Below, piece after piece: positions 16,076 to 33,818 of a DNA stretch of 33,914 nt. A program made the position numbers and the translations under genes. Location: contig JAEUPW010000050.1 of the NCBI GenBank assembly GCA_016790045.1, positions 1 through 33,914 of the forward strand, given 5' to 3'. Under the pieces are notes generated by a model. The model did no database searches. It saw nothing but the letters and a program-made list of their open reading frames with translations, and was not told the origin of the DNA. Each line of letters begins with the position of its first letter. Position 1 is the stretch's first letter. Origin of the DNA: Candidatus Competibacteraceae bacterium. Lineage in GTDB: Bacteria > Pseudomonadota > Gammaproteobacteria > Competibacterales > Competibacteraceae.

Positions 16076-16080
16076 GCCGG

Positions 16081-16800: not shown

Positions 16801-17600
16801 GCCGGCTCGACCTCCACCCGCAAGCCGCCGCCCCGCCCCGCCAACAGGATCGATTCCGCCCTGCGGCGCGCGATGGCGCACAGCAGCGGCAAGCCGCGCG
16901 CGGCGGGATTGCCGGAGCGCAGGCGCTCCAGTTCCGGGTCCGCCAATGGGGTCGCCGTCGACGGTGCCGCCGGTTCGAGCCGCAGCGTCGCCAGGCCGCG
17001 CGCCGGATTCGGATTCAGCAGCAGCGCGAGCGCGAACGGGGCGACGATGCGGCGGCGATCCGACAACGGAAACGGCGGCGGGAGATCGTAAGCCACCAGC
17101 AGCACCCGCGTCGCCTCGGCCCACGCCAGCGCCGCCGTTTCCATCAACCCGCCGCCAAAGCTGCCGTCGTAGGCGGACAGGCTCGATGAGGGATGGCGGC
17201 AACCGGTGGCGATGGACCAGTAGCCGGAAGGCGTGTTGTGCACCGATTGATGGAAATGCACCGGAGATACCGCGCGGTCGGGCAAGGCCAGCGCCGCGCA
17301 AATGTTATCCAGCACCTCGCTATCGCCGCCGGAGGAGGCGAACACCGTCGGCAGCGCCGCCGCGAGCTTCCCGTCCGGCGTGGCGGACGCCGAGCCGACC
17401 GCCTCTTGGGCGGCGTGCAGCGCCAGCTTGATGGTGGCGGTCACGCGCCGCCGCTCGTTGGCCGGCAGCAGCGACGCCGCGATCGCCGGCAGCGGTTCGG
17501 GCGCATACGCGCGCTCGCCGGCCAGCGCCGCCCGCCCGGCAGCCCAACTCGGCAATCCCGGCGCGCACAGGCCGACGCTTTCGACGGTGAGCGCCTTCAT
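16797..17600 (-). CDS. Beta-ketoacyl synthase-like chain-length factor 1 (Ketoacyl-synt_2 type)
   Basis: A 267-residue half-size ketosynthase relative matching the N-terminal-like thiolase family (PF13723 type) found in all aryl-polyene loci. It keeps landmarks such as GLCAPGLPSW (10-19), HQSVHNTPSGYWSIATG around residue 116-132, LSAYDGSFGGGLMETA near 140, and RLRSGNPAARGLPLL near 230. The position of the usual active-site Cys has no Cys, and the C-terminal half with the two catalytic histidines is absent, so it should act as a non-catalytic partner that sets chain length in a heterodimer with the full ketosynthase directly upstream. It overlaps that ketosynthase gene by 4 bases (17597-17600) and the ketoreductase by 4 bases. 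A paralogue sits at 22153-22944. Confidence 0.88.
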   Translation of the reverse strand: MKALTVESVGLCAPGLPSWAAGRAALAGERAYAPEPLPAIAASLLPANERRRVTATIKLALHAAQEAVGSASATPDGKLAAALPTVFASSGGDSEVLDNICAALALPDRAVSPVHFHQSVHNTPSGYWSIATGCRHPSSSLSAYDGSFGGGLMETAALAWAEATRVLLVAYDLPPPFPLSDRRRIVAPFALALLLNPNPARGLATLRLEPAAPSTATPLADPELERLRSGNPAARGLPLLCAIARRRAESILLAGRGGGLRVEVEPA

Positions 17601-18793: not shown

Positions 18794-18796
18794 CGC

Positions 18797-21142
18797 TCAA
18801 TCCAGTCGGTTCAATAGAGGCCGCGCCACGATCAGAGCGGCGATGAAACTGGCGGCCGCGCCCAGGCTCACGGTCAACCCGATGGCCCGAAGCGCCGGCA
18901 GCGCCGACGTTGAAAGCATAGCAAACACGATCAGCGCCGAGGCGCAACACACCATCAAGGCGTGCAGGGTGCGGCGGCGCAAATCCGCGTCCGCGGCGGG
19001 CCGGCTGAAAAACAGCCCGTAATCGACGCCGATGCCCAACACCAGCAGCAGCGACACCAGATGGAACAGCGACAGCCGCTCGCCCAGGGCCAACAGCGTC
19101 GCCACGGTGAACAGCAGCGCCAGCAGCACCGGCAACAGCGCGGCCACGGCCGGCCTCCAGGCGCGCAAACCCCAGCCCACCACCGCCACGATCAGCGCGC
19201 TGCCCCAGGCCAGCCGCCACAGGGCCGCCGCGCGGAATTCCGCCACCAGCCGGTTGGTCTCGGCGCGCAAGTCCAGATAATAGGCCCGCGCGTTATCCGG
19301 TTGCGGCAACCCCGCCGCCAGGGCTCGCGCGTCCCGCACCCCGCTCAAAGGCAACAGCGCGGTCCAGCCGCGCGCTCCGACCGACAGCAGGGAGCGGACC
19401 CGGACGCCCAGCACGCTCTCGCCCACCTCCTCCAATCGCAGCGGCGAGGCGGCGCGCGCGGCGGCGATGGCATCGAGAAACGGCGCGAACAAACCGGGCT
19501 TGAACGGCAACCCTTCCAGCGCGATATCGAGGTTCGCGGCCAAGGTTTCCGCCTCCGGCAACGCCGCTTGCCGCTGGCGCTGGGTCGCGAGGCTCGGCAA
19601 ATAGCGCATGGCCCCATCGTAACCGGCCAGCATCCCCGCCTGCCGCTGACGCTCCAGATAAGCCCCGACGCTTTCGCTGGCCCGCAGCGCGGTTTCGGCG
19701 TCGGGCGCGGTGATGGCGATCAGATGGCCGACTTCCGGCGCGCCCAGCGCGCCGCGCAACGCCTGATCGACTCGCAACAGCTCGCGCGGCACCGGGCTGA
19801 GCGCGGCCAGATCGTTTTCCCACAGCGGCGGCGCTTTGGCGAGCAAGCCGATCAGCAGCAGAACCCCGAGACCGCCGAACGCCAGCGCCAGGCGCGGCCG
19901 GGGCCGCAACAGCTTGTCGGCCCAATCGCCGACCACGGTCGGGCGCGGCGGCCGCCAGTGCGGCGGGACCAGCACCGGCAACAGCCAGCGGGTCGTCGCC
20001 ATGGCGGCGATGACCCCGGCGACGGTGAACACCCCCAATTGGCCCAAACCCGGAAAGCCGGAATCCAGCATCGCCAGACAGCCGAGCGCGGTGGTGGCGG
20101 CGCACAGCCGCAGCGTCGGCCACAACTGCCGCAGCGTCTCTTCCACGGTTTCGCCGGCGCGCCGGTGGCTGAACAGATAGGTGGGGTAATCCAGCGTTTC
20201 GCCGAGCAGCGTCACGCTGAACGCCAGCGTGATCAGATAAAGCTGGCCGAACAGCAAACCGACCGCCGCCGCGCCGGCCAGCAGCGCCGAGAGCATCGGC
20301 AGCGCGCCGAGCCAAAGCGTGCGCGCCGAGCCGTAGACCGCCAGCAACAGCAGCGCGACCGCCGCCAGGGACAGCCCGCTCAGCCATTCCGCCTGCGCGC
20401 GCACCCGATCCTCGGATAGCGTCGCCAGCACGCCGGGGCCGCTCAAGGTCAGGCTGACCCCGGTGGCGGCCCCCGCTCCCGCAAAGGCTTGACGGATCGC
20501 GGCGACCACCGCGCGCTGGGCTTTGAGATCGTAGCCGGAGGCGCGCGTCTCGACCAGCAGCAAAGCGCGCGCGCCATCGGGAGAGAACCAGACCCCCAAA
20601 CGCTTGGCCGGCTCGCGCAAGCCGCCTTGCAACAGCCGCAACAGGCTCAACAGCTCGCCGGTCGGGTCCTCGGCCAACCAGCGTTTCTGAAAGACCCCCA
20701 GCGGCGATTGCAGCTCCGCCAGCCGCTGTTGCAAGGCGGCGCGCAAGCCGCCCGCCGTGAAGCGCTCCGGCGCGACGGCGGGACTGAGCCAATAGCGCTG
20801 GGCGAGCAAGGCTTGCAAATCGGCGTCGGGCAGCGTTTCCGCGCCGTTGACCACCCGCGCGAACGCGGGATCGGGCCGCAACCGCTCCGCCAACCGGCGG
20901 CTGGCGGCGGCGCGATCGGCCTCGGAACCGCCGTCCAATCCCAGCAGAATCAACCGCGTGGTCGGGCCGCTGCGCAACTGTTCCAGCAGCAATTCGGCGG
21001 CCGGATCGGCGCGCGGCGCGAACAGGGTCAGATCGGCGACCACCGGCGTGGTCCAGGCGATCCAGCCACTCGCCAGCACGGCCAGCAACCACAGCAGCGG
21101 AATCCACCGGCGAGGCGCGAAATTCAAGCGGCGTCTCTCCAA
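18797..21142 (-). CDS. MMPL/RND-family exporter of the aryl-polyene locus
   Basis: A 781-residue inner-membrane transporter of the RND superfamily, comparable in size to MMPL-like proteins of other aryl-polyene and lipid export loci. There is one helix near residues 13-31 (WIPLLWLLAVLASGWIAWT), a periplasmic domain of about 220 residues, a helix cluster at about 255-390 containing GETLDYPTYLFSHR, another helix near 418-435, a second periplasmic domain, and a final cluster at about 645-780 with VLGIGVDYGLFFSR. The paired GxxxDY motifs are the proton-relay signature of the family. It begins 10 bases after the LolA-like gene and ends 3 bases before the ketosynthase. It probably hands the lipid-linked polyene to the LolA-like carrier. 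Confidence 0.92.
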   Translation of the reverse strand: MERRRLNFAPRRWIPLLWLLAVLASGWIAWTTPVVADLTLFAPRADPAAELLLEQLRSGPTTRLILLGLDGGSEADRAAASRRLAERLRPDPAFARVVNGAETLPDADLQALLAQRYWLSPAVAPERFTAGGLRAALQQRLAELQSPLGVFQKRWLAEDPTGELLSLLRLLQGGLREPAKRLGVWFSPDGARALLLVETRASGYDLKAQRAVVAAIRQAFAGAGAATGVSLTLSGPGVLATLSEDRVRAQAEWLSGLSLAAVALLLLAVYGSARTLWLGALPMLSALLAGAAAVGLLFGQLYLITLAFSVTLLGETLDYPTYLFSHRRAGETVEETLRQLWPTLRLCAATTALGCLAMLDSGFPGLGQLGVFTVAGVIAAMATTRWLLPVLVPPHWRPPRPTVVGDWADKLLRPRPRLALAFGGLGVLLLIGLLAKAPPLWENDLAALSPVPRELLRVDQALRGALGAPEVGHLIAITAPDAETALRASESVGAYLERQRQAGMLAGYDGAMRYLPSLATQRQRQAALPEAETLAANLDIALEGLPFKPGLFAPFLDAIAAARAASPLRLEEVGESVLGVRVRSLLSVGARGWTALLPLSGVRDARALAAGLPQPDNARAYYLDLRAETNRLVAEFRAAALWRLAWGSALIVAVVGWGLRAWRPAVAALLPVLLALLFTVATLLALGERLSLFHLVSLLLVLGIGVDYGLFFSRPAADADLRRRTLHALMVCCASALIVFAMLSTSALPALRAIGLTVSLGAAASFIAALIVARPLLNRLD

Positions 21143-21152
21143 TTTCGCCGGC

Positions 21153-21710
21153 CTAACGGGGCGTCAGCGTCAGCACGCCACGGTCGCCGCCGGCTTCCAA
21201 AGTCTCCACGCTCGCGATCCGCGCCTCCTGCCCGCGCAGCACGATCGCGGTCACGTAGCGGGCGGCTTCCGGGGCCAGCGGCGTCAGGCGCAAGCTCCAG
21301 GACGCGGGCGCGCCCTCGAACTCCAGGCGGTAAAAGCGCTCCAGCGTCTTGCGGTCGCCGGCTTGGGTGGCGCGGATCGCCTCCACCAGCGGCCGCAGTT
21401 GCGGATAACCGTTCAGATCGAACTGGCGGCGACCGGCGGCCGGCGTTTCCACGGTCAGCCAATCGCCGTCGGCCTCGTAATCCTCCGCTTGGGGAAACAG
21501 CGTTTGCTTGCGCAAAAAGCCCGGCGCGCGGTAATACAGCCGCCCGGTCGCGACCAGCGGCTCTCGCAGCGCCGCGAGGTGCTTTTCTTCCCGAAAATCG
21601 CCTTCCACCGCCGGCACCGCCGCCAGCAGCCGCATGACCTGATCCAAGCTCTCCTGACCGAAACCGGCCAGCGGCCCGCACAGCAACAGCGCCGCGAGCC
21701 AGCGCTTCAT
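21153..21710 (-). CDS. LolA-like periplasmic lipid carrier
   Basis: A 185-residue exported protein related to the outer-membrane lipoprotein carrier LolA. The start chosen is the ATG at 21710-21708 (MKRWLAALLLCGPLAGFGQ), which gives a clean Sec signal peptide with cleavage likely near residue 19; a longer frame would run back through the dehydratase gene. The mature protein has LolA-like features: ESLDQVMRLLAAVPAVEGDFREEKHLAAL, then a beta-rich stretch with GRLYYRAPGFLRKQ. LolA-like proteins are a standard member of aryl-polyene loci and are thought to shuttle the hydrophobic product across the periplasm. It overlaps the dehydratase stop by 4 bases (21707-21710) and precedes the MMPL exporter by 10 bases. 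Confidence 0.88.
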   Translation of the reverse strand: MKRWLAALLLCGPLAGFGQESLDQVMRLLAAVPAVEGDFREEKHLAALREPLVATGRLYYRAPGFLRKQTLFPQAEDYEADGDWLTVETPAAGRRQFDLNGYPQLRPLVEAIRATQAGDRKTLERFYRLEFEGAPASWSLRLTPLAPEAARYVTAIVLRGQEARIASVETLEAGGDRGVLTLTPR

Positions 21711-22156
21711 CGGTCGGCGCTTCCGGCGCTCGGGCGCGGGGCGATAGTCACGCGCGCCTCGGCCAACAGGCGACCGGCGGCGCTGACCGCAATCGCGTAA
21801 ATGCATTGCGCGCCCTCGCCCAACAGCAGCCGCGCCTCGACCTCCAACGGCGCGGCGTCGGCGTCCAGCTCATCGGCGAACCAACGCAGATCGCGCAGCG
21901 CGGCCAAATAGCCGGGCGGCGCGGTTTGGCCCTCCTTGCGGGCGCGCAACGCGCCGTGAATCGCCGCCGCCTGACCGCCGTACTCCACCGCGTGCGCGGC
22001 GCAAAGCCGCCCCTCCCGGCGCAGCGGGTTGGCCGGGTCGCGGTGGGTTTCGGTCAAACAGCGAATGCTGTGCGCGTCCCAAGCCGCGACCTTCTCCAGC
22101 AGGCACATGGTCCCGCTGTGAGGGATCAGGCTTCGAATTTCAATGTTGTCGATCAT
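21707..22156 (-). CDS. Hotdog-fold 3-hydroxyacyl-ACP dehydratase 1 (ApeP-type)
   Basis: A 149-residue single-hotdog dehydratase predicted to remove water from the 3-hydroxyacyl-ACP to leave a conjugated double bond. The N-terminal SLIPHSGTMCLLEKV (residues 9-23) carries the conserved His, and CAAHAVEYGGQAAAIHGAL near residues 52-70 is the long hotdog helix with the acidic residue. This pattern differs from classical FabZ (HFP..P...G) but is typical of aryl-polyene loci. It overlaps chain-length-factor-like gene 2 by 4 bases and the LolA-like gene by 4 bases. A second, FabZ-like hotdog is encoded at 28507-28815. Confidence 0.88.
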   Translation of the reverse strand: MIDNIEIRSLIPHSGTMCLLEKVAAWDAHSIRCLTETHRDPANPLRREGRLCAAHAVEYGGQAAAIHGALRARKEGQTAPPGYLAALRDLRWFADELDADAAPLEVEARLLLGEGAQCIYAIAVSAAGRLLAEARVTIAPRPSAGSADR

Positions 22157-22944
22157 CGGACCTGCACGTTCAGTTCGAGGCGGGCCGCCGGCAGATAGGG
22201 CAACGCGAGCGCCGCCGATCCGCCGATCGCGAGCCGCCGCAACAGCGGCAGCGCGCGCGCGGCGGGATTGCTCAAGCGCAGGCGCTCCAACCGTTCATCC
22301 GGCAGCGAATCGGCCGCGCCGGGCCGGATCCGCAAATCGCGGAGGGTGGCGATACTACCGGGAAGCGGCTCCGGCGTCAGCAGCAACGCCAGGCCAAACG
22401 GGGCGCCGACCGCCCGAAACGGTCGCAAGGCCAGCGGCGGCGGGGTGTCGTAAGCCACCAGCAGCACCGGCCGCCACTCCAGCCGCGCCAGCGCGACGGC
22501 TTCCAGCAGGCCGGCGGCGAAAGTGGCGTCAAACGCGCCGACGCTGACCGCCGGACGCATCGAACCGGTCGCGATGCTCCAATAGCCGAGCGGGGCGTTG
22601 TGCACCGAGTGGTTGAACTGGCCGGGCGAAAGCGCGCGTTCGGGTTCGAGCAACGCCTGGCACAGCGCGTCCAGGGCTTCGGTGTTGCCGCCGGCGCAGG
22701 CGAACACCGCCCCGCAACGCCCGGCGTCCAGCCCGGCGGCGTCCAGCGCCTCGCCCGCCGCCTGCAAGGCCAACCGGACGGTCAGCGTCGCCCGGCGCGC
22801 TTCGTTGCGCGGCAGCCGCACCCGATCGAAGCGCAAAGCCGCCTCTGGGCCGTAGGGCCGCGATCCCGCCAGCACCGGGCGCCCGCTCGGCCAGTCCGGC
22901 AGACCGGGCGCGCACACGCCCACGCCGCTGACCCACGCGCTCAT
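22153..22944 (-). CDS. Beta-ketoacyl synthase-like chain-length factor 2 (Ketoacyl-synt_2 type)
   Basis: A 263-residue paralogue of the protein at 16797-17600. Start at the ATG 22944-22942 (MSAWVSGVGVCAPGLPDW); the frame upstream overlaps the DUF218 gene and is not used. It shares VGVCAPGLPDW, NEARRATLTVRLALQAA, SVHNAPLGYWSIATG and RLSNPAARALPLL with its paralogue, about the same spacing throughout. The nucleophile-elbow region reads GAFDATFAAG with no Cys, and the histidine half of ketosynthases is missing, so it should be non-catalytic. It is coupled by 4-base overlaps to the DUF218 gene upstream and the dehydratase downstream, away from the catalytic ketosynthase. Whether it replaces or joins paralogue 1 in the heterodimer cannot be told from sequence. 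Confidence 0.87.
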   Translation of the reverse strand: MSAWVSGVGVCAPGLPDWPSGRPVLAGSRPYGPEAALRFDRVRLPRNEARRATLTVRLALQAAGEALDAAGLDAGRCGAVFACAGGNTEALDALCQALLEPERALSPGQFNHSVHNAPLGYWSIATGSMRPAVSVGAFDATFAAGLLEAVALARLEWRPVLLVAYDTPPPLALRPFRAVGAPFGLALLLTPEPLPGSIATLRDLRIRPGAADSLPDERLERLRLSNPAARALPLLRRLAIGGSAALALPYLPAARLELNVQVR

Positions 22945-23633
22945 GAGATGCGCGTCAGGTTCCGGCGGTTTCCGGTCCAGCGCGACCACGCCTTGCCGAC
23001 GCGATACCAGTGCAGATAGTACGCCTCCCGGCCGAGCCGCCAGACGGTCAGCGGGTTGAGGTCGAGACGATCCTCGGCGGCGCACAGCCTGGGGTGCAGC
23101 GCCAGACCGCGCGCCAGCGCTTCGCTGCGGGCCAGATGGTGCCGGCTGGTCACCAGGACGAAAGGGCGGTCGCGCAACTCCGCCCGCAACCGGCGGGCGT
23201 GGCGCAAGTTGTCGAGCGTGTTCAGCGATTGATCCTCGACGAACAGCGCCGGCGCCGGGATGCCGGACGCTCGCAGAAATTCTCGGCCGCATTCGGCTTC
23301 GCTGATCGCGCCGCCGGTGGGACCGCCGACCAGCAGCACGCGCCGCCGGGGATCGGCCCGATACAGCGCGGCGGCGCGCCGCAGGCGGCGGGCATAGCCA
23401 GGCCCTACCGCATCGCCGATCAGGCGCGCGCCCAGCACCACGATCCACTCCCCCTCGATCCCGGAAACCGGCGTGCCGCGCGCGATCCGCCAGACCCGAT
23501 AATAGAGCCAAACCCCGCTCAAACCGGCCGTCGCCAGCAGCACCAAATTGGACAAAACCAGCATCGCCGCGCCGTTCCAGCCGATGCCGCGCTGGCGGGC
23601 GAACCATCGTTCGGGAGCCAATCCGGGTTTCAA
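22941..23633 (-). CDS. DUF218/YdcF-SanA-like membrane protein in the polyene operon
   Basis: A protein of about 230 residues with one N-terminal hydrophobic helix (AAMLVLSNLVLLATAGLSGV) and a DUF218 domain as in YdcF, SanA and ElyC. Family landmarks are WIVVLGARLIGD, RVLLVGGPTGGAISEAE, FVEDQSLNTLDNLRHAR and VLVTSRHHLARSEAL. The start is taken as TTG 23633-23631: it overlaps the acyltransferase TGA as TTGA and has GAGGA 6 bases before it. A TTG 13 codons further up also keeps the frame open but has no such site. DUF218 proteins affect envelope polysaccharide or undecaprenyl-linked processes, though the biochemical activity is unproven. Its place inside the operon suggests a role in processing or exporting the polyene; that is inference. 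Confidence 0.83.
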   Translation of the reverse strand: MKPGLAPERWFARQRGIGWNGAAMLVLSNLVLLATAGLSGVWLYYRVWRIARGTPVSGIEGEWIVVLGARLIGDAVGPGYARRLRRAAALYRADPRRRVLLVGGPTGGAISEAECGREFLRASGIPAPALFVEDQSLNTLDNLRHARRLRAELRDRPFVLVTSRHHLARSEALARGLALHPRLCAAEDRLDLNPLTVWRLGREAYYLHWYRVGKAWSRWTGNRRNLTRIS

Positions 23634-24535
23634 CTCGATTCCTCGGCCCAGTAATCGTAGAAATTGAACCAATTATAAGGCGCGAGCCGGGCGTAATGCT
23701 CCAGGCGCTCGGCATAGCGCTGGACCCAAACGCCCAACTGCTCCTGGCGGCGGCGCGGCTCCAGCGCGATCCGCTCGGCCAGCTTTTCGAAATGCACGTC
23801 GTAGCGATCGCCGCCCCGATATAAACCGAAACACAGAATCACCGGACACTCCATCAGCGCCGCCAGCAGGATCGGCCCGATGGGAAACCGGGTTTCCTGG
23901 CCGAAAAACCGGCAGCATACCGTCTTGTCGTCCTGCGCCACCCGGTCGCCCAGCGCGCCGATCAAACAGCCTCGCGCCACGCTTTCTTGCACCGCCAGCA
24001 GCGTTTCGGGCCGACCGATGGGAATGATGGCTCGCGCCAGTTCCGGATTTAGCGCCTCGAACAACCGGGTCAGGGCTCGATTGTGTTCGACGTTCATCAA
24101 AATCTTGATCGGAAAGGGGCGCAGGGTCGAGCCGACCCCCCGCAAGGCGTCAAAGCTGCCCAAATGCGAGCCCAACAAAATGCAGCCCCGGCCCGAGGCC
24201 ACCTGATCCAAAATCGTCTGGCCGCCGAAAATCTCGATGCGGAAATAATCCAGCCGGCCGGTCAGAAAATAGACCCGATCCAGGACGGTGGCCGCAAAAC
24301 AGTGGATGTGGTGAAACAGCTCCCGCCAGCGCGGCTCCCGGCCCGACACCCGGCGCAGATAAAGCCGGGAACCCTGGCGGGCGGCGGCGGCGGTGATCAG
24401 AAAATACAGGGTGATGGGATACAGCAAAGCGCGGGCGGCGGGGCGGCCGAGATACAGCGCGATCGCGCGGATCAGCCAAAGCGCCAGCGGCGAGCCCCGC
24501 TCCGGCAACCGCGCCCAGTTCCGGCTTCGGCTCAC
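23630..24535 (-). CDS. LpxL/HtrB-type lysophospholipid-like acyltransferase (LPLAT)
   Basis: A 301-residue membrane-associated acyltransferase related to the late lipid A acyltransferases. The catalytic HxxxxD appears as GSHLGSFD, His124 and Asp129, followed by ILMNVEHNRALTRLFEALNP. An N-terminal hydrophobic stretch (LALWLIRAIALYLGRP and LYPITLYFLITAAAARQ) precedes it. LGDRVAQDDKTVCCRFFGQE near 195-215 is the usual second block. The start is GTG at 24535 with GGAGA 9 bases upstream on the minus strand, 30 bases after the ACP stop. Acyltransferases of this type are a regular part of aryl-polyene loci, where they are thought to move the finished polyene from ACP onto a lipid anchor. The acceptor is not shown by the sequence. 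Confidence 0.9.
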   Translation of the reverse strand: MSRSRNWARLPERGSPLALWLIRAIALYLGRPAARALLYPITLYFLITAAAARQGSRLYLRRVSGREPRWRELFHHIHCFAATVLDRVYFLTGRLDYFRIEIFGGQTILDQVASGRGCILLGSHLGSFDALRGVGSTLRPFPIKILMNVEHNRALTRLFEALNPELARAIIPIGRPETLLAVQESVARGCLIGALGDRVAQDDKTVCCRFFGQETRFPIGPILLAALMECPVILCFGLYRGGDRYDVHFEKLAERIALEPRRRQEQLGVWVQRYAERLEHYARLAPYNWFNFYDYWAEESS

Positions 24536-24565
24536 GGGCTGGCGTCTCCGCTGGCGAGCGCGCCG

Positions 24566-24835
24566 TCAGCGGGCGCGCTGCTGTTCGATATGCTGGCTCA
24601 AGGCCCGCAGCGAGGCGAACACGCGCCGGTTTTCCTTGTCGTCCGAACGCAGTTGAAAACCGTAAGTCTTCGAAACCGCCAGCGCCAATTCCAGCGCGTC
24701 GATGGAATCCAAACCCAGGCCCTCGCCGAACAGCGGCTCTTCCGGAGCGATTTCTTCCGGCTTGACATCTTCCAGATGCAGGGTCTCGACCAACAGTCGA
24801 GCCACCTCCAGCTCGAACGGTGAAAGCGGTTGCAT
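24566..24835 (-). CDS. Acyl carrier protein of the polyene synthase
   Basis: An 89-residue carrier with the phosphopantetheine site Ser44 in GEGLGLDSIDALEL. It starts MQPLSPFELEVARLLVETLH and is acidic with some extra charged residues near the C-terminus. The ATG at 24835 has GAGG at 24842-24845 (minus strand), 6 bases upstream. It is the first gene of the long operon, 30 bases ahead of the acyltransferase. Described aryl-polyene loci of the E. coli type often carry two ACPs; only this one is visible here. Confidence 0.93.
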   Translation of the reverse strand: MQPLSPFELEVARLLVETLHLEDVKPEEIAPEEPLFGEGLGLDSIDALELALAVSKTYGFQLRSDDKENRRVFASLRALSQHIEQQRAR

Positions 24836-25050
24836 TGATGACCTCGCGGGAGTGTATTGTGATCTCGGTAACCGTTTTGAGTCGTGGTGCTATCACGGTT
24901 CGCACATGCGTTGATAGACTATATCATGCCCGTTAAAAATAACCTTTACCCGCTCGGATCGACGCTGTCGAAAGCCCTGCCCCCCCCTTGTGATCGCCGT
25001 GGAGCGCCGGGCTTGGAGGTCGGGGGCCGCGCCCGCCCACCCGGCCCGAC
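24836..25050. promoter_or_regulatory. Divergent promoter/operator region between the polyene operon and the chorismatase gene
   Basis: A 215-base gap between two divergently read blocks, more AT-rich than its surroundings between 24840 and 24960. Two inverted repeats stand out: AACCGT (24870-24875) with ACGGTT (24895-24900), and TGATA gacta TATCA around 24912-24926. Either could be an operator, and the second lies in an AT-rich stretch suited to a -10. No full sigma70 promoter with good spacing could be picked by eye. No regulator gene is adjacent. Confidence 0.4.
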
Positions 25051-26037
25051 ATGAGCCTGTTCACCGTTTTCTATGGCGACGCCGCCGACTGCCGCGACCG
25101 CTTGCGCGACGACCGTCTGCTGGCGCTGGTCCGTTTCGCTCATCCCCCCGCCACGGAAGCGGACGGACGGATTTGCACCGTCGATCTCGAAGCGTTGGGC
25201 TCCGGCGCGACCGCCGAAATCTGGCTGGGCGCGCGCCCGGCGCGCGTTGCGGTGAGCGAAGGCATCTACCACGCCGATGACGGCGAGGTGCTGTTCCTGC
25301 ACGCCCGCTCAGACGAATACGCGCCGGATGCGCTGCAACCGCTGACCGCCGTGCTTTACCGGCGGCTGTTCGCCAAGGCCCGCGCCCTGGGCTACCCGCA
25401 CGTTCTGCGCGTCTGGAATTACTTTTCCCGGATCAACCAGGAATGCGGCGGCCTGGAACGCTACCGGGCCTTTTGCGCGGGCCGGCATCAGGCGCTGGCG
25501 GCGGAACTGGCCGAATTCGAAACTCGCCTGCCCGCCGCCTCGGCCATCGGCACCCGCGCCGCCGGCTTGCAAGTCTGCGCGCTGGCCGCTCGCGAGCCGG
25601 GCGCGCAGATCGAAAACCCGCGCCAGGTCAGCGCTTTTCGTTATCCCCGCCAATACGGCCGGCGCAGCCCTTCCTTTTCGCGCGCCATCTTGAAATCCTG
25701 GGGCGAGGGCCGCGAACACCTGTATATTTCCGGCACCGCCAGCATCGTCGGCCACGCGAGCAGGCATGACGATTTGTCCGGCCAGTTGGAGGAAACCCTC
25801 GCCAATCTGGACGCCTTGCTGGCCGAAGCGGAGCGACGGGCGGAAAACCCGCTCGCGCTGGCGCTGCTGAAAATCTACGTCCGGCCCGAACTGGACCCCG
25901 CGCCCTTGCGCGAGCGCATCGCGCGGACCTTCGGCGAGCGGACGCCGCTGCTGTTCTTGCGCGCCGACATCTGCCGGCGAGAGCTGCTGCTCGAAATCGA
26001 AGGGCTGGCGACCGCGCCCGCCGCCCGCCACCTTTAG
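25051..26037 (+). CDS. Chorismatase, FkbO/Hyg5/XanB2 family
   Basis: Converts chorismate to a hydroxybenzoate (or dihydroxycyclohexadiene acid) plus pyruvate. In Xanthomonas, XanB2 gives 3- and 4-hydroxybenzoate for the pigment xanthomonadin and for ubiquinone. The 328-residue length fits the family. Diagnostic stretches are VWNYFSRINQECGGLERY (121-138), ENPRQVSAFRYPRQYGR (188-204), SPSFSRA (206-212) and YISGTASIVGHAS (225-237). Older annotations call these pteridine-dependent deoxygenases. The ATG at 25051 lacks a strong ribosome site. It is read divergently from the ACP operon and is followed after 11 bases by a methyltransferase. Which hydroxybenzoate isomer it makes cannot be decided by eye. 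Confidence 0.92.
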   Translation: MSLFTVFYGDAADCRDRLRDDRLLALVRFAHPPATEADGRICTVDLEALGSGATAEIWLGARPARVAVSEGIYHADDGEVLFLHARSDEYAPDALQPLTAVLYRRLFAKARALGYPHVLRVWNYFSRINQECGGLERYRAFCAGRHQALAAELAEFETRLPAASAIGTRAAGLQVCALAAREPGAQIENPRQVSAFRYPRQYGRRSPSFSRAILKSWGEGREHLYISGTASIVGHASRHDDLSGQLEETLANLDALLAEAERRAENPLALALLKIYVRPELDPAPLRERIARTFGERTPLLFLRADICRRELLLEIEGLATAPAARHL

Positions 26038-26048
26038 GATCGCGCCCC

Positions 26049-26807
26049 TTGAAACCGGAAAAACCGCTCGAACCGCATCCGGCGTTGCCGGACTATTATC
26101 CCGACCTGGCGCAACGGCCCGCGTTCGTGCGCGGGCTGTTCGACCGCACCGCCCGCCACTACGACCGGATCTGCCAGCTAATGTCCTTCGGGTCGGGCAA
26201 CTGGTACCGCCGCCGGGCGCTGGAACGCGCCGGCCTGCGCCCCGGCATGACGGTGCTGGATGTCGCCACCGGCACCGGGCTGGTCGCCCGGCAGGCCCTG
26301 GCGATCACCGGCGACCCGCGAGCGGTGATCGGCCTGGACGTGAGCGCGGGGATGCTGGCCGAGGTGAAACGGCTTTTGAACATCCCGCTGATGCAAGGCT
26401 TGATGGAGCGGTTGCCGGTCGCGGATGGCTGCTGCGACATGATCAGCATGGGCTACGCCCTGCGGCACGTCGCCGATCTCAACGCGACCTTCCGAGAATT
26501 CCATCGCGCGCTGCGGCCGGGCGGCGTGTTGCTGATCCTGGAAATCGCCCGGCCCGCCACGCCCTTGAAGCGAGGTATCATCAAATTCTATATGGGGCGG
26601 GTGATCCCGCTGCTCAGCCGCCTGACCACCGGCCAGCAAGACGCCCAAACGCTGATGCGCTATTACTGGGACACCATCGAAAATTGCGTCGCGCCCGACA
26701 CCATCGTGCAGGCGATCCGCGACGCCGGTTTCGCCGAAGCGGGCTGCGATGCGGAATTCGATCTGTTCCGGGCCTATTTCGGGCGCAAGGGCGGCGGCGG
26801 GACTTGA
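26049..26807 (+). CDS. UbiE/COQ5-like SAM methyltransferase
   Basis: A 252-residue class I methyltransferase. It resembles UbiE in RTARHYDRICQLMSFGSGNWYRRRAL near residues 33-58, the SAM motif VLDVATGTGLVARQA near 75-90, GYALRHVADLNATFREFHRALRPGGVL near 135-160 and MRYYWDTIENC near 205-215. The start is TTG at 26049, with AGGA at 26036-26039 overlapping the chorismatase stop, spacing 9. True UbiE ends its motif II with R.FKPGG and works on ubiquinone; here the linkage to the chorismatase suggests methylation of the aryl ring of the polyene or its hydroxybenzoate starter. That substrate is inference. It ends 26 bases from the convergent GFA gene. Confidence 0.87.
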   Translation: MKPEKPLEPHPALPDYYPDLAQRPAFVRGLFDRTARHYDRICQLMSFGSGNWYRRRALERAGLRPGMTVLDVATGTGLVARQALAITGDPRAVIGLDVSAGMLAEVKRLLNIPLMQGLMERLPVADGCCDMISMGYALRHVADLNATFREFHRALRPGGVLLILEIARPATPLKRGIIKFYMGRVIPLLSRLTTGQQDAQTLMRYYWDTIENCVAPDTIVQAIRDAGFAEAGCDAEFDLFRAYFGRKGGGGT

Positions 26808-26833
26808 GCGATCAGCGCAACAGCGTTTATCGC

Positions 26834-27193
26834 CTACAACAGGTGCTTGCCATCGAAAACGTCCGCTTCGAGCGCGAGCGGATCGACGCCGTCGACGCAC
26901 CCCAGATTGACCCGGAAGTGTCCCGGCTTCCTGATGGTTTGGTGGAAGGTGTAGATGCCGCAGCGCTTGCAGAAATAATGCTTGGCGATGCTGGAGCCGA
27001 ACTGGTAAAGCCCCAGCGCGTCTTCGCCGGCTTCGATCCTGAAGTTCTCCGGGGCGATGATCTCCGCCGACATCATCGCCCCCTTGCGGATGCAAAGCGA
27101 GCAATTGCAGCGCAAGCCTCTCTCGATCGCCTCGCCCCGATACGAAAAACGGACCGCGCCGCAATGGCAGGAACCCCGGTAAGACTGGCTCAT
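26834..27193 (-). CDS. GFA/CENP-V domain zinc protein
   Basis: A 119-residue protein of the glutathione-dependent formaldehyde-activating (GFA)/CENP-V fold. The start is the ATG at 27193-27191 (MSQSYRGSCHCGAVRF). Zinc ligands are Cys9 and Cys11 in SCHCGAV, Cys29/31/34 in CNCSLC, and Cys76/79 in FCKRCG, a complete set. The domain is often annotated S-(hydroxymethyl)glutathione synthase or just GFA protein, and most members have no proven activity. It is last in the second minus block, 58 bases behind the O-methyltransferase-like gene, and may simply be a passenger. A link to the polyene pathway is not supported by anything but position. Confidence 0.88.
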   Translation of the reverse strand: MSQSYRGSCHCGAVRFSYRGEAIERGLRCNCSLCIRKGAMMSAEIIAPENFRIEAGEDALGLYQFGSSIAKHYFCKRCGIYTFHQTIRKPGHFRVNLGCVDGVDPLALEADVFDGKHLL

Positions 27194-27251
27194 CAATCGC
27201 TCCTCACAGTTGTGGAACCCGGACGCTTTGCGGCTTGCCGCCGCCAAACCC

Positions 27252-28436
27252 CTAAGGCTTGACCGCGCCCACGGCGGCCGCGACCAAGGCGGGATAGCGC
27301 TCGCGAATCCGGGGAATATCCGGCCAGACGAACGGCTCGGCGAAACCCGCCGCACGAAACGCCGCCAGCCACTGTTCGGGCGTCAGAAAGCCCCCGTTTG
27401 GCCGCCACTGCGGCTGCAAAACCGGAGCGCGGAACGAGTCGAGCAGCGCGAAGACGAATTCGACGTAAACCGTCCGACCGGGAAACGGCCGCACGCATTC
27501 GGAGGCGATCAAGCATCCGCCCGGCGCGAGCGCGGCGCGGATTTCCGCCAGCGTAAACGCCAGATCGCGCGCCACATGCAAAGTGTTGACCCCGTACACC
27601 ACCGACAGGCTGCCCGGCTCCACGCCCGCCTTGGCAAACGGCCGGTCGATGTCGAGCAGGCCGCAACTGAGCCGGCCCGGCGCGTCGGGCCGGGCCATCA
27701 ACGCCCGCTGGCCGCGCCGCAAAAACAGCGGCGATAGCTCGGTGAACCGATAGGCTTCAATGCGCTCCGTCGCGCCCGCCGCCGCGAAGCCGTCGAGCAA
27801 AGCCATCGCGCCGCTCCCGGCCCCGCCGCCGATTTCGAGAACGGTTCCGCGCGGATGCGGGAAGCGCGCCAAAACCGCCCTGGACCCGATTTGATTGCTG
27901 ATCGCGTAGAGCGGATTTTGATTTGAAAAATAGTCGGACCAAGCCGAAATGCGGTCGGCGGAGAACAAAACCGCCTCTCCGGTCGCCGCACCGCGCATGA
28001 CCTGCGGGTAGCCTTCCGCCGCGAGGGCCGCCAGGCGATACGACGGCAGCGCGGCGGGATCGTGCGCGGCCTGCGCCCGCTCGATCTCCGCCGGATCGAG
28101 GTCCGGCAGAGGCCCGAGCGCCTGAAAGCGGCCCGGTTCGCCACCGTTTCGCGCGACCGCGCCCCGTTCGACCAAAAGGCGCAACAGCCAATCGACCAGG
28201 GGCGGTCCGGGCGCCGCATCCAGGCCCGCGCGCGAGGCGATGTCCGCCGCCGCGCCGCCGCGCGCGAGCGCCTCCTCCAGACCGGCGTCGCGCGCGACCT
28301 TGAGCGCCAACCGGAAGACATACTCTTCGATCAGATCGCACGACGCGATGAAGCGATCGTCGAACAGCGGCAACAGCGCGACGGGCAGCAGGGCGGAGCG
28401 CAGGTCGGAACCGGTGGCGACGGGGCGGACAGGCAT
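27252..28436 (-). CDS. O-methyltransferase-like SAM-dependent methyltransferase
   Basis: A 394-residue protein. The start is the ATG at 28436-28434 (MPVRPVATGSDLRSALL); the frame further up has no matching content. Residues 30-105 look like the dimerisation/winged-helix domain of plant-type O-methyltransferases. The SAM domain has VLEIGGGAGSGAM near residues 200-212, VVYGVNTLHVARDL near 283-296 and LAPGGCLIASECVRPFPGR near 310-330. It lies 70 bases after the FabZ-like gene in the block begun by the aryl ligase. Aryl polyenes commonly carry methyl or O-methyl groups on the ring, so modification of the head group is a reasonable inference; the acceptor atom is not known. Confidence 0.8.
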   Translation of the reverse strand: MPVRPVATGSDLRSALLPVALLPLFDDRFIASCDLIEEYVFRLALKVARDAGLEEALARGGAAADIASRAGLDAAPGPPLVDWLLRLLVERGAVARNGGEPGRFQALGPLPDLDPAEIERAQAAHDPAALPSYRLAALAAEGYPQVMRGAATGEAVLFSADRISAWSDYFSNQNPLYAISNQIGSRAVLARFPHPRGTVLEIGGGAGSGAMALLDGFAAAGATERIEAYRFTELSPLFLRRGQRALMARPDAPGRLSCGLLDIDRPFAKAGVEPGSLSVVYGVNTLHVARDLAFTLAEIRAALAPGGCLIASECVRPFPGRTVYVEFVFALLDSFRAPVLQPQWRPNGGFLTPEQWLAAFRAAGFAEPFVWPDIPRIRERYPALVAAAVGAVKP

Positions 28437-28506
28437 TAAAACCACCCCTCGACGCGCCCGACTTCCGGCGATAGGATCATTGCGCGACCGCGACGTCCCA
28501 TGCCGG

Positions 28507-28815
28507 TCAACGCTTCGCCTCAACCCAACGCAACTGGCCTTGCGCCAGCATCTGGCCGTCCTCGCGGACGCACTCGAAACGCAGCTTGCCGGCGGTTGCA
28601 CCCAGAAAACGGACGATGCACGTTTGTTCCGGCCGCAACGGCGCCAAGAATTTCACCACCGGCATCCCGCTCGCGTTCCGGTCCGGATATTGGGCCGCAA
28701 ACGCTTGCAGCACCTCGTCCAAAATCACCGCGCCGGGCACGATGGGATTGCCGGGGAAATGCCCGGCCAGGCTGGGATGGTCGGCGGCGATGGAAAAAGA
28801 TCGTTCAACGGTCAT
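28507..28815 (-). CDS. FabZ/FabA-like hotdog dehydratase 2 (ApeI-type)
   Basis: A 102-residue hotdog protein, shorter than FabZ (about 150). It has the FabZ signature HFPGNPIVPGAVILDEV (His19, Glu34). The start is the ATG at 28815-28813; 11 bases overlap the end of the aryl ligase gene (28805-28815). Aryl-polyene loci usually contain two different hotdog proteins, one of this short kind and one of the kind at 21707-22156. Roles proposed are dehydration or product release; here both should act on ACP-bound intermediates. Confidence 0.88.
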   Translation of the reverse strand: MTVERSFSIAADHPSLAGHFPGNPIVPGAVILDEVLQAFAAQYPDRNASGMPVVKFLAPLRPEQTCIVRFLGATAGKLRFECVREDGQMLAQGQLRWVEAKR

Positions 28816-30139
28816 GCGGGAGCGTCGCGGCGGGATGCAGTCTGGCCAACAGCGCCAACAGCGCTTCCCGCGTCGGCTTGCCGGTTTCGTTGCGCGGCAG
28901 GGCATCGACCTTGACCAGCGGGCGCGGCAAAAACACCGGATCGAGCCGTTGGGCCAGGGCGGCGAGCAGTTGACGCTTGCTCAAGCCGGGCGCAACCACC
29001 AGCGCCGCCAGTCGCGCGACCTCGCCCTCTCCTGATTCCGGCGACAGAAAAACGCCCTCGACCACGCCGTCGATGTCGTTGAGCTGGTGGTTGAGATAGC
29101 CGAGCGAGGTCCGTTTGCCGGCGATGTTGACCACATCCTCCAGCCGGCCCAGCAGCTTGAATTCCGACGGCCCGCACGGCTCGACGATATCGTTCAACGG
29201 CACCGGTTCGGGCAAGTGCGCGCCGGAGAGCCGGCCGTCGCGCAGCTCGAAACCGTCGTACAGCCGCCAGCGGTCGCCGTCCAGGGTGCGGCGGCTGGCG
29301 ATGGAGCCGGCTTCGGTGCAACCGTAGATTTCCAAAACCGGCGCGCCGAAAGCGGCTTCGGCCTGGGCCGCCAGCTCCGCCGACAATGGGGCGGTCGCCG
29401 AAATCAAAAACGCCGGTCGCGGCCACGTCAAGCCAGCCTGGACGCAGGCTTGCAGGTGAACGGGCGTGGTGACCAGCACGCGCGGTGCGGGTACGGCGGC
29501 CAGCGCCGCGCGCACGTCGCCCGGAAAAAACGGCCGCCCGCCGTGGACCCGTGCGCCGCTGGCCAAGGGCGCCATGATCGAGGTTTCCAGACCGTACATG
29601 TGCTGGGGCGGCACGGTCGCCACGATAGCGGTGGTCGGGTCAAAGCCGAAACGCTGTCGCGCCTGGCGCGCGCCGCCGATCAGTTCGCCCCAGGTTTTGA
29701 CGTTCGGTTTGGCCTGCCCGGTGCTGCCGGAGGTGAAAGCCACCGCCATCACCTGATCGGCCGGCAGTTCGGGCACGGCGCGCGCGGTGTCGTCGCCAAA
29801 GTCCGCGTCCAGCCACGCTTCGATGTCGTCGTCCGCAATCGTGCCGCTGTCGGGATAATCCTCGGCCACGCGCCGCAAATGCAGGGCGGCGCGGCTGGAG
29901 GGCAGCAGATTGCTTTGGCCGTTCGCGCCCACGGCGGCGAACGCGACCAGAAAGCGGTAACGATCCTCGCAGAGGTTGATGATGAAACGGACCGGCAGCA
30001 ACCGGCGGGCGACCCGCTCGACATGCGCCAGAAAAAGATCGCGCCGGATCGGCTGCGACCGCCGCCAGGCGATCAACTGATCCGGGGAAGCCATTGACAG
30101 CAAGGGAAATTTGGCGAGCATCGTGGAAGATCGGCGCAT
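28805..30139 (-). CDS. Aryl/acyl AMP-dependent ligase loading the polyene ACP (XanA2-like)
   Basis: An adenylate-forming enzyme that activates a hydroxybenzoate with ATP and moves it to the carrier protein. About 444 residues from the ATG at 30139-30137 (MRRSSTMLAK); ATGs at 30121 and 30094 are also possible, and none has a clear ribosome site. Motifs: P-loop VAFTSGSTGQAKPN, aryl-pocket and A5 EIYGCTEAGSIASR, hinge GRLEDVVNIAGKR, and C-terminal catalytic lysine in PRNETGKPTRE. The frame stays open upstream to 30268 but that stretch overlaps the divergent DUF2970 gene and has no family match. Being in a block with a dehydratase and methyltransferase, and with a chorismatase nearby, it is very probably the starter-loading ligase, equivalent to Xanthomonas XanA2. 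Confidence 0.9.
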   Translation of the reverse strand: MRRSSTMLAKFPLLSMASPDQLIAWRRSQPIRRDLFLAHVERVARRLLPVRFIINLCEDRYRFLVAFAAVGANGQSNLLPSSRAALHLRRVAEDYPDSGTIADDDIEAWLDADFGDDTARAVPELPADQVMAVAFTSGSTGQAKPNVKTWGELIGGARQARQRFGFDPTTAIVATVPPQHMYGLETSIMAPLASGARVHGGRPFFPGDVRAALAAVPAPRVLVTTPVHLQACVQAGLTWPRPAFLISATAPLSAELAAQAEAAFGAPVLEIYGCTEAGSIASRRTLDGDRWRLYDGFELRDGRLSGAHLPEPVPLNDIVEPCGPSEFKLLGRLEDVVNIAGKRTSLGYLNHQLNDIDGVVEGVFLSPESGEGEVARLAALVVAPGLSKRQLLAALAQRLDPVFLPRPLVKVDALPRNETGKPTREALLALLARLHPAATLPHDR

Positions 30140-30243
30140 TGATGGTTTAATGTAGCAAAATTCAGCGGTCCTGCGCCCGTCTGTTGGGCCGGCGACTTCA
30201 AAAGACCCCACCTTTTCGATCCCTTGAACCGACGCTAAAGCCG

Positions 30244-30489
30244 ATGACTCGTCCCCCCGATACTCCACCGCCCGATCCCAAGGATTCCCACCGACAACCC
30301 GGCGCGCTGGACGTGGTGTTTAGCGTGCTCGCGTCCTTTTTCGGCGTGCAAAGCGCGCGCAATCAGGAGCGGGATTTCCGCCACGGCCGCGCGGCCCATT
30401 TCATCATCGTCGGCCTCGGTTTGACCTTGCTGCTGATTTTCGGCATTTGGCTGGCGGTCAAATTGGCCTTGCGCGCCGCCGGCGCTTAG
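30244..30489 (+). CDS. DUF2970 family small membrane protein
   Basis: An 81-residue protein with a proline-rich N-terminus, the DUF2970 core LDVVFSVLASFFGVQSARNQERDF near residues 22-45, and one transmembrane helix near residues 54-75 (IIVGLGLTLLLIFGIWLAVKLAL). The start is the ATG at 30244; a GTG 60 bases earlier only adds sequence unlike the family. DUF2970 proteins are widespread in gamma- and betaproteobacteria and have no known role. It stands alone between the aryl ligase (divergent) and the peptidoglycan-binding gene. Confidence 0.85.
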   Translation: MTRPPDTPPPDPKDSHRQPGALDVVFSVLASFFGVQSARNQERDFRHGRAAHFIIVGLGLTLLLIFGIWLAVKLALRAAGA

Positions 30490-30534: not shown

Positions 30535-31326
30535 ATGAGCCGCATCGTTCTCACCGAAGAATTGGAGGCCGAGTACGGTCGTCTGTTCGCCGATTGCACG
30601 GCTCGCCCGGAACGGGACGCCGAGGTCGATGCGCTGGCGGACGCCCTTTTGGCTGATCGGGGCCGCTATCACGCGGTCGGCGCACGGTTGGGGATACCGT
30701 GGTTCGTGACGGCGGTGCTGCATTACGCCGATACCGGCCGCGATTTTGAAGTCCACCTGCATAACGGCGACCCGCTGACCGACCGCACCCAGCATTTGCC
30801 GGATGGCAGGCCGCCGGAAGGCGAGCCGCCGTTCGCCTGGGAAGATAGCGCCGCCGATGCGTTGCGCCTGCGCCATATCGATCAGTGGGATGACTGGAGC
30901 ATCGCCGGGGTTCTGTTTTTGCTGGAAGCGCGCGGCGGCTGGAGCTACCGCCTGCACCATCCCGAAGTGCTATCGCCTTATTTGTGGAATTATTCGACCC
31001 ACTACCGTCAGGGCAAGTACATCGCCGACGACACCTGGAACGAAACCGCCGTCGCCCAGCGCTGCGGCGCGGCGGTGCTGTTGCGGCGGCTGGCGGAACG
31101 CGGCGTCATCGATTTTGCCGGAGAGCGCCCGCCCCGGCCTTTGGTCCGCTACGACCGCGGCGAACCCGCGCCGGCGGTGGAAGCGCTGCAACGATTTTTG
31201 AACACGCTGCCCGGTATTTTCGTCAAGGTGGATGGCGTGGCCGGCCCCAGAACCTCGGAAGCGTTCCACAAACTCTGCGGGCGGTATCTGCTGGGCGACC
31301 CGCGCGACTCCGAACCGCCAGGCTAA
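30535..31326 (+). CDS. Lysozyme-like protein with peptidoglycan-binding domain
   Basis: A 263-residue protein without an evident signal peptide. Residues 5-190 resemble a lysozyme-like domain family also known from cyanobacteria: GRYHAVGARLGIPWFVTAVLHYADTG, the HLHNGDPLTDRTQHLPDGRPP stretch, WEDSAADALRL, DWSIAGVLFLLEARGGWSYR and QRCGAAVLLRRLAERG. Residues 205-250 (PAVEALQRFLNTLPGIFVKVDGVAGPRTSEAFHK) form a peptidoglycan-binding type 1 repeat. Glu residues early in the domain could be catalytic but are not proven. No holin or other phage gene is nearby. It ends 164 bases before the kinase gene; the two could be one unit, but there is no overlap. Confidence 0.82.
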   Translation: MSRIVLTEELEAEYGRLFADCTARPERDAEVDALADALLADRGRYHAVGARLGIPWFVTAVLHYADTGRDFEVHLHNGDPLTDRTQHLPDGRPPEGEPPFAWEDSAADALRLRHIDQWDDWSIAGVLFLLEARGGWSYRLHHPEVLSPYLWNYSTHYRQGKYIADDTWNETAVAQRCGAAVLLRRLAERGVIDFAGERPPRPLVRYDRGEPAPAVEALQRFLNTLPGIFVKVDGVAGPRTSEAFHKLCGRYLLGDPRDSEPPG

Positions 31327-31486
31327 AATCCCGATTCTATCTCAGCCCTTTAGCTTGATCGTCAGATCCAATTTCCGAATCGCCCGTAGCAGTCATTCCT
31401 CCGACTTAATAGGGCGCTCATCGCTGATTGATGGCGCGCTCCGTGCATCCCCCCAGCATTTTGCAATCAATCGGAAATCGGGATTT
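31326..31486. repeat. Widely spaced 11-base inverted repeat upstream of the kinase gene
   Basis: AAATCCCGATT at 31326-31336 and its exact reverse complement AATCGGGATTT at 31476-31486. The first arm starts at the stop of the preceding gene; the second ends 4 bases before the proposed kinase start. The 139-base spacer holds nothing else recognised. It may be chance, a long-range hairpin or a scar. Confidence 0.5.
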
Positions 31487-31490
31487 GCGG

Positions 31491-33818
31491 ATGACACAGC
31501 TTAAATGTATGGGGTGCATGACCGATCGGGGAGCCGAAACTGTTTGTTCGCACTGCGGGTTTTCAGAATCCGATCAACCCGCCTCGCGGCAGCATTTGCC
31601 ATTACGGACCGCATTGCAAGCCCGCTATACCGTCGGGCGCGTGCTCGGCGAAGGCGGCTTCGGAATCACTTATCTGGGTTGGGATGATACCTTGGCGCTG
31701 CGGGTCGCCATCAAGGAATTTCTGCCGCGCACCCTGGCCGGGCGAAGCGGTGATGGCCTATCGGTGCAAGTTTATCAGGGCAAATCGGCCCAAGAATTCG
31801 CTTACGGCCTAGAACAATTCCTGGATGAGGCGCGGAGGCTAGCGCGCTTCGCCAACCATCCCGGCATCGCGACGGTACGCGACTTTTTCGCCGCCAATCA
31901 GACCGGATACTTGGTCATGAACTATCTCGACGGCGTGACCTTGCAAGATTATTTGCTCCGCCAAGGCAATCGTATTTCCGTAGATCAAGCCCTTGATATC
32001 TTGCTGCCGGTCATGGACACCTTGCGAGATATTCACGCTTCGGGCCTTCTGCATCGCGACATCAGTCCCGACAATCTTTTTGTGCCGGATGGCAAACCGA
32101 CCAAACTGATCGATTTCGGGGCGGCACGCACCGCCCTAAGCCAGCACAGTTGCAGTTTGTCGGTGGTGGTCAAACCGGGCTTCGCCCCCGAAGAACAATA
32201 TCGCACGCGAGGAGAGCAAGGCCCGTGGACGGATGTTTATGCGCTCGGTGCAACTTTGTACTGGGCGTTGACCGGCGAACGTCCGCCGCCCGCTCCAGAT
32301 CGCGCTTATCAAGACACACTGTTGCCACCCACGGTTTTGGGCGCAATTTTGCCCGCGCCGGCGGAGGACGCCTTGCTAAAGGCGCTGGCGGTGCGATCCG
32401 AACAACGCTTTCAGACTGTAGAAGAATTTCAAACCGCCTTATTGCAAGGCATCGGCAAGGCGGACATTTTTCACGGCACACCGCGCGTAACCGTTTCACG
32501 GCCCGCGCCGCCAGCGACCGTTGTTAACCTCAAGAAAGCCGAGCCCGCTTCTAATAAACTGCTGAGAGGACGGTATTGGCTATCCGAAAAACTCGGCGAA
32601 AGCGAAGGAGTATCGACCTACTTGGCAATTGATCATCACACCCATCAACGTTGCTTGATCAAACAATTTTTCTTGGAAAAGGCGAACGATTGGAAAAGCG
32701 TTGAACTGTTCGAACGCGAAATTAAAACCCTTAAAAATCTGAATCACCCACATGTTCCTGATTACCTAGATAGTTTCTTCAACGAAGAGGGCCATCGTCA
32801 GGATTTATTTTTGGTGCGGGAATATCTACCTGGAAAAACTCTCATCCAGCATATGGCCGAGGGACGTCGCTTTACCGAGCAAGAAGCGCGATCAATAGCC
32901 CTCGTTTTGGCCGAGTTGCTATGCTATCTCCATCGCTTCTCACCACCGCTAATCCATCGAGACATCAAACCCGGCAGTTTATTGTTGAGCGAAGAAGAGA
33001 AAATCTATCTCATCGATTTTGCTGAAGTGCAAGACGCCCTCAAATTGAGCTGGGGATCTACCGTAGCGGGAACGTTCGATTATCAACCCCCAGAACAGAA
33101 ACGGGGGAAACCGGTCCCCGCTTCCGATATCTACTCGCTAGGCGCTACCTTGATCCATCTTTTATCGGGGCTCCGTCCCTCGCGCTTGCTCGCCAAAGAC
33201 CAACGACTCCTGTTCCGCGCTCATGTCAATGTGTCTGAAGAATTCAGAAATATCCTAGAAAAAATGGTGGAACCAAAGCTGGATCGGCGCTATCGGACTG
33301 CGGCTCGGCTCTTGGAAGATTTACAAAATCTGAATGTGGCTTTGCCGGAATCCCGGCCTTTTAGAATCGATAAACGGCTCTGGCTGGCCGGCGGCTTGAC
33401 GGTGCTTGTGGGCCTTGCCGGATTAATCGGCTTTATGGGATGGCCGGGAAGTTTGGTCTCGTTATCTATGGGACCCGCGATTCAGGAAGCTTTGGAGCGG
33501 AGCAGCGCTGTCAGAACTAATGTAACAGAGTATTTCATCACGAGCGGCAAGCTACCAAACAGCAACGCTGACCTTAAGCTACCCCAGCCCAGCGCTTACC
33601 GATCATCGCTGGTAGAATCGATTAGTATTTTACCTAACGGTTTCATTGAGACCAAATTAAATCGAAATGCCATTAACTCAGGAGGAACCATTTATTTTAA
33701 ACCCCTTGTCAACTTTGAAACTTACTTTATTGAATGGAAATGTCTTTCTCCTGACATCAAACAAATTGCCAAAATCGCGCAAATATGTACTTATGAGCCT
33801 GGATTTTCATTAAAATAG
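31491..33818 (+). CDS. Transmembrane Ser/Thr protein kinase with tandem kinase domains and pilin-like C-terminus
   Basis: Start at ATG 31491 (MTQLKCMGCM), 775 residues; a start at 31428 would add 21 residues before the zinc ribbon. Layout: zinc ribbon with CxxC pairs (Cys6/9, Cys19/22); kinase 1 at about 46-320 with glycine loop GEGGFG, Lys75, HRD 188-190, Asn195, DFG 208-210 and APEEQY 232-237, so it looks active; kinase 2 at about 360-615 with a weak glycine loop, Lys391, HRD 489-491, but Ser496 in place of the Mg-binding Asn and DFA in place of DFG; a membrane helix near 630-650; then about 115 residues resembling the type IV pilin headgroup, with NVTEYFITSGKLPNSN (677-692) and Cys751/Cys766 placed like the pilin D-loop pair. 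It is probably an inner-membrane receptor with a periplasmic pilin-like sensor. The signal and substrates are unknown. Confidence 0.92.
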   Translation: MTQLKCMGCMTDRGAETVCSHCGFSESDQPASRQHLPLRTALQARYTVGRVLGEGGFGITYLGWDDTLALRVAIKEFLPRTLAGRSGDGLSVQVYQGKSAQEFAYGLEQFLDEARRLARFANHPGIATVRDFFAANQTGYLVMNYLDGVTLQDYLLRQGNRISVDQALDILLPVMDTLRDIHASGLLHRDISPDNLFVPDGKPTKLIDFGAARTALSQHSCSLSVVVKPGFAPEEQYRTRGEQGPWTDVYALGATLYWALTGERPPPAPDRAYQDTLLPPTVLGAILPAPAEDALLKALAVRSEQRFQTVEEFQTALLQGIGKADIFHGTPRVTVSRPAPPATVVNLKKAEPASNKLLRGRYWLSEKLGESEGVSTYLAIDHHTHQRCLIKQFFLEKANDWKSVELFEREIKTLKNLNHPHVPDYLDSFFNEEGHRQDLFLVREYLPGKTLIQHMAEGRRFTEQEARSIALVLAELLCYLHRFSPPLIHRDIKPGSLLLSEEEKIYLIDFAEVQDALKLSWGSTVAGTFDYQPPEQKRGKPVPASDIYSLGATLIHLLSGLRPSRLLAKDQRLLFRAHVNVSEEFRNILEKMVEPKLDRRYRTAARLLEDLQNLNVALPESRPFRIDKRLWLAGGLTVLVGLAGLIGFMGWPGSLVSLSMGPAIQEALERSSAVRTNVTEYFITSGKLPNSNADLKLPQPSAYRSSLVESISILPNGFIETKLNRNAINSGGTIYFKPLVNFETYFIEWKCLSPDIKQIAKIAQICTYEPGFSLK

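Follow-up and report, generated by a model that had tools for sequence, protein, structure and literature searches.

A receptor-like tandem kinase with a C-terminal type IV pilin headgroup in a Competibacteraceae bacterium

Results

The kinase gene and its surroundings

The window, that is, the whole stretch of DNA that was analysed, is contig C153 (33,914 bases) of an assembly with 179 contigs and 76% completeness. A gene for a receptor-like tandem kinase with a pilin head lies at its right-hand end, with the stop 96 bp from the end of the contig, and its features are collected in Table 1. The ORF translation is intact from the ATG to the stop. An in-frame TTG is listed upstream, at 31428; the ATG was favoured because the relatives likewise start just ahead of the zinc ribbon. 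The final 96 bases of the contig (33819-33914) have 33% GC, compared to 65% in the window. Upstream on the same strand, a 263-aa protein (30535-31326, +) has a sub-threshold peptidoglycan-binding match at its C-terminus, and further upstream (15290-30268, -) ketoacyl synthases, an MMPL transporter, a glycosyltransferase, a methyltransferase and an AMP-binding enzyme follow in a row, which is probably an aryl polyene-type biosynthetic cluster. Neither pilus genes nor T6SS genes were found among the window genes scanned.

Table 1. Features of the kinase gene, in positions of the window
Feature	Position	Strand	Basis
Receptor-like tandem kinase with pilin head, 775 aa	31491..33818	+	ORF; start matches relatives
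Zinc ribbon CxxC-x9-CxxC (C6, C9, C19, C22), cytoplasmic	31506..31559	+	Sequence; conserved in G020/G029 relatives
Kinase domain 1, residues about 45-318	31623..32444	+	PF00069; nearest solved structure PpkA kinase 5hnv
Kinase domain 2, residues 357-615, degenerate	32559..33335	+	PF00069 best stretch 364-602; PknA alignment
Single membrane helix, about residues 629-651	33375..33443	+	Hydropathy; similar helix in G020/G029 relatives
Periplasmic type IV pilin headgroup, residues 661-775	33471..33815	+	PF00114, PDB profile search, AF2 and fold search

The cytoplasmic part and the membrane helix

A sequence-only reading of this DNA had described a receptor kinase with a cytoplasmic zinc ribbon, one kinase domain and a lone membrane helix at about residues 630-650. 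The zinc ribbon was recovered as C6-x2-C9-x9-C19-x2-C22 and is conserved in the relatives from genomes G020 and G029. The single kinase domain was not borne out, and Pfam together with the alignment to PknA resolves two, the second of which is degenerate. Kinase 1 has the complete catalytic set of a Hanks-type Ser/Thr kinase (Lys, Glu, HRD, Asn and DFG), namely K75, E113, HRD188-190, N195 and DFG208-210; among solved structures it comes closest to the kinase domain of PpkA (5hnv, E 2e-54), and the HRDIS catalytic loop is common to both. In the alignment to PknA, kinase 2 still has the lysine, the glutamate of helix alpha-C, the HRD motif and the Asp in DFG; the catalytic Asn is replaced by Ser (HRDIKPGS instead of HRDxKxxN), the DFG motif reads DFA, and the glycine loop (GESEGVS) is poor. 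Judging from these residues, kinase 2 is probably regulatory or weakly active, and it may be decaying.

The membrane helix was found where it had been placed, at about residues 630-656, with the highest 19-residue hydropathy (2.03) at residue 630, and the basic stretch RPFRIDKR is located on its N-terminal side. The topology predicted from these two features, one pass through the membrane and then an extracytoplasmic domain, is that of a receptor kinase; with the helix in the likely N-in orientation, the pilin head would be periplasmic.

The C-terminal tail is homologous to type IV pilin headgroups

The likeness of the C-terminal tail to a pilin head had been proposed by eye, and it withstood both the profile search and the fold comparison. 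In the full protein, the Pfam Pilin family PF00114 matches residues 665-757 with 28.7 bits, and the tail alone scores 33.2 bits (E 1.1e-7), both above the gathering cut-off of 22 bits. When the single tail was compared to the PDB by phmmer, all 6 matches were type IV pilins (best E 0.0057). A profile made solely from fused heads (A2), from which true PilA was excluded, matched PilE/PilA of Neisseria (N. meningitidis and gonococcal) with E values of 2.3e-14 to 1e-12; for the P. aeruginosa pilin, E was about 8e-8 to 9e-8. The headgroup consists of the alpha1-C half, the alpha-beta loop, four strands and the C751-C766 loop. The two cysteines noted in the earlier reading are indeed 15 apart, C751 in WKC and C766 in QIC, and the WxC motif with a second cysteine is also present in other heads.

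The single-sequence AlphaFold2 model is of low confidence (pLDDT 56, pTM 0.51), and at that confidence it predicts a helix at 662-685 and strands at 708-713, 719-723, 732-741 and 746-752. With this low-confidence model, type IV pilins occupy Foldseek ranks 1-6 (each with probability 1.00; rmsd 2.1-7.1, at or below 3.4 for five), and VIA ranks 1-23 consist of type IV pilins and chimeras of pilins (Z from 9.6 down to 5.6), followed by a T2SS pseudopilin at rank 24 (Z 4.7) and an unrelated PI3K at rank 25 (Z 4.6). Sequence comparison and predicted fold thus agree that the tail is a homologous type IV pilin headgroup.

On the other hand, the sequence ahead of the head contains neither the prepilin signal G|FxxxE nor the hydrophobic alpha1-N of a type IV pilin fibre subunit. 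The absence of the signal points to a tethered head rather than a fibre subunit, and pilin-type processing and polymerisation should not occur.

Kinase relatives and the C-terminal slot

Closest to this protein are kinases from G020 and G029, with 66-68% identity across residues 3 to 380-392. They run on into RYWLAEK, which resembles the start of kinase 2 (RYWLSEKLGE), and the rest of kinase 2 is missing. A similar membrane helix follows in both (1 of 1000 shuffles scored as high in the G020 relative; 44 of 1000 in the G029 relative, where the match is weak), and both end in an LprI-like periplasmic domain just below the Pfam cut-off. In more distant relatives, the same C-terminal slot holds an FGE-sulfatase domain (G019) or DUF4384 (G017). 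Since the relatives keep the kinase 2 stub and a similar membrane helix and differ in the C-terminal domain, this kinase family appears to have a swappable periplasmic sensor slot, which here would be filled by the pilin head; the retained stub and helix also suggest that the tandem kinase layout probably predates the head. Among the related genomes G001-G036, many Hanks-type kinases per genome were seen (up to 17 matches), and several kinases have FGE-sulfatase-like domains at the periplasmic position.

Along the gene, the GC content is 0.57 in kinase 1, 0.48 in kinase 2 and 0.42 in the head, in a window of 0.65; its second half may be foreign in origin.

Rarity of the fusion

The architecture had been called unusual, and the survey agrees. 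No second kinase-pilin protein was found in the order (PF00114 over 40 genomes, with long frames examined), and no kinase was present among the listed long-frame matches to the tail or the fused-head profile in 369 genomes of the class, where one listing gave the best matches and weaker ones could have escaped notice. Apart from the window's own, no orthologue of kinase 2 plus tail was found in 398 genomes of the phylum, where BLAST gave three kinase matches (E 3e-23 to 7e-23), none reaching the tail. For kinase 2, no relative was found at E 1e-30 in 58 other genomes, and a DNA search with the second half of the gene across the order gave nothing. The tail found no relative in the viral contigs and genome contigs scanned, and kinase 2 plus tail gave a single weak kinase match there. 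In tblastn against plasmids, matches spanned as much as 78% of the query, none with the tail, and the high coverage apparently comes from one kinase matching both kinase domains. The head alignment was dropped as a source for pattern scans because it was too divergent. Full-text literature searches returned no description of a kinase-pilin fusion. As no orthologue with this tail was found, there is no conservation showing that the fusion is maintained.

Pilin heads on other membrane proteins

Pilin heads are joined to a range of other partners, whose names, where Pfam support is lacking, were assigned by eye. These include ankyrin repeats (L065, L109, L110, L111), DUF2628 (L068, L069, L112, L137), M48-type proteases (L129, L136, L138), a zinc ribbon with a membrane helix (L117, L132), a DUF805-like protein (L115), a GYF-like domain (L072), Lcl_C (L067), a 640-residue lipoprotein-like protein (L062-L064, L135) and a DUF4124-like secreted protein (L139). 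The ankyrin proteins, which come from several families of the class, have the order membrane helix, pilin head, ankyrin repeat; the M48-type membrane proteases terminate in a pilin helix and head, for example IGILAAIAIPAYQDY.

A poorly resolved tree built from 85 heads (110 columns) requires 8-10 switches between the fused and the pilin state, which suggests that fused heads arose from several origins. The window head clusters with ankyrin-type heads (97/85), a grouping to be read with long-branch caution. Taken together, these wider fusions suggest that the headgroup can be reused as a periplasmic module.

Pilus genes in the genome

Type IV pilus genes had been suggested as something to look for in the same genome, and this expectation held in part. 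PilB (859 bits against a cut-off of 676), a PilC-like protein (PilC is its best NCBIfam match, under the strict cut-off of that model) and three PilT/PilU-family ATPases over cut-off are encoded; the assembly, which is 76% complete, yielded neither PilA (PF00114) nor PilQ and, for PilM, only a sub-threshold match, so that these genes may lie in the missing part. The proteins found to have an N-methylation motif cluster on contig C43, and the one that was scanned is the type II secretion protein GspJ. A DotB/TraJ-like ATPase under the DotB cut-off is also present in this genome (L060:1132-2271, +).

Discussion

Proposed mode of action

Based on the results presented above, we consider with a probability of about 0.6 that the protein is a single-pass Hanks-type receptor Ser/Thr kinase, in which the pilin head serves as the ligand-binding or dimerisation input. 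The control of Ser/Thr kinases by a periplasmic domain has precedents in PpkA (PMC6082577) and PknS (PMC13147305). The head would be held at the periplasmic side of the inner membrane, with its alpha1-C helix continuing from the membrane helix, much like that of a membrane-parked pilin. It might then bind a partner, most likely another pilin-fold subunit from the pool that serves a pilus or pseudopilus, or else a second head. Partner binding would alter dimerisation and thereby release trans-autophosphorylation by kinase 1, and kinase 2 might serve as a brake or scaffold, in the manner of a pseudokinase.

Sensing of pilins or of retraction by the head is plausible; as a specific claim, a pilin as its ligand is tentative and leans to the doubtful side. 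A pilin-headed kinase may let the cell read the state of pili or of other pilin-fold proteins, and a built-in head would link such proteins directly to phosphorylation. A more elaborate version, in which the kinase mimics a membrane-parked pilin and its head replaces a subunit in pilin-pilin or pilin-platform contacts, so that the pilin pool or retraction is read, is rather unlikely; if true, the kinase would be one case among pilin-headed membrane proteins plugged into the pilus machinery.

Alternative explanations

It may instead be that membrane proteins have repeatedly borrowed the head as a general module for protein binding or dimerisation in the periplasm, unlinked to pili and with some other ligand. 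The heads found in related genomes on ankyrin repeats, DUF2628, M48-type proteases, Lcl_C, a zinc ribbon and a DUF4124-like secreted protein speak in this direction, as do the several origins read from the 8-10 label changes and the grouping of the window head with ankyrin-type heads, subject to the long-branch caution. However, the head retains the elements used in pilin packing (alpha1-C helix, beta sheet and cysteine loop), and the other fused-head proteins could likewise contact the pilus machinery, so that we place this alternative a little short of even odds. The stepwise GC drop, the lack of a close relative of kinase 2 in the 58 other genomes and its lost consensus catalytic residues would also fit a recent and poorly maintained gene, in which a foreign AT-rich kinase 2 and head were stitched onto a resident kinase and do little or nothing. 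Such a gene is distinctly unlikely: its 775 codons are open, the cysteine pair and core motif of the head are preserved, and the kinase 2 stub and similar membrane helix in the relatives imply that the tandem layout is probably older.

Finally, kinase and pilin might have been joined from separate molecules during assembly, a concern raised by the position of the gene at a contig end in a fragmented assembly and by the GC shift at the head. This is highly improbable, because the reading frame is unbroken, the GC shift starts already at kinase 2, and the head comes after a membrane helix resembling that of the kinase relatives. Moreover, the head begins at alpha1-C, with neither the hydrophobic helix nor the signal of a pilin, and no close stand-alone gene for it was found.

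Comparison with known systems

The proteins joined to ankyrin repeats, DUF2628, M48, DUF805, GYF and zinc ribbons resemble the receptor kinase proposed here in that the pilin head is likewise appended after a membrane helix, and none of those seen has a kinase domain. With the type IVa major pilins PilA and PilE (PF00114), the kinase shares the headgroup sequence and fold and the C-terminal cysteine pair; in contrast to them, its head has no prepilin peptidase signal or hydrophobic alpha1-N and is placed on the C-terminus of a kinase. PpkA of the T6SS threonine phosphorylation pathway has the same layout of kinase, membrane helix and periplasmic input domain, to which the present protein adds the zinc ribbon, the degenerate second kinase domain and the pilin head. 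The main known routes from pilus state or surface contact to cytoplasmic signalling are PilS and PilY1-PilJ in Pseudomonas and PilA-PleC in Caulobacter. The likeness to PilS, which binds PilA directly (PMC6058289), is limited to the proposed role of a kinase that reads the membrane pilin pool: PilS is a six-helix histidine kinase, whereas here a Ser/Thr-type kinase bears a pilin head of its own.
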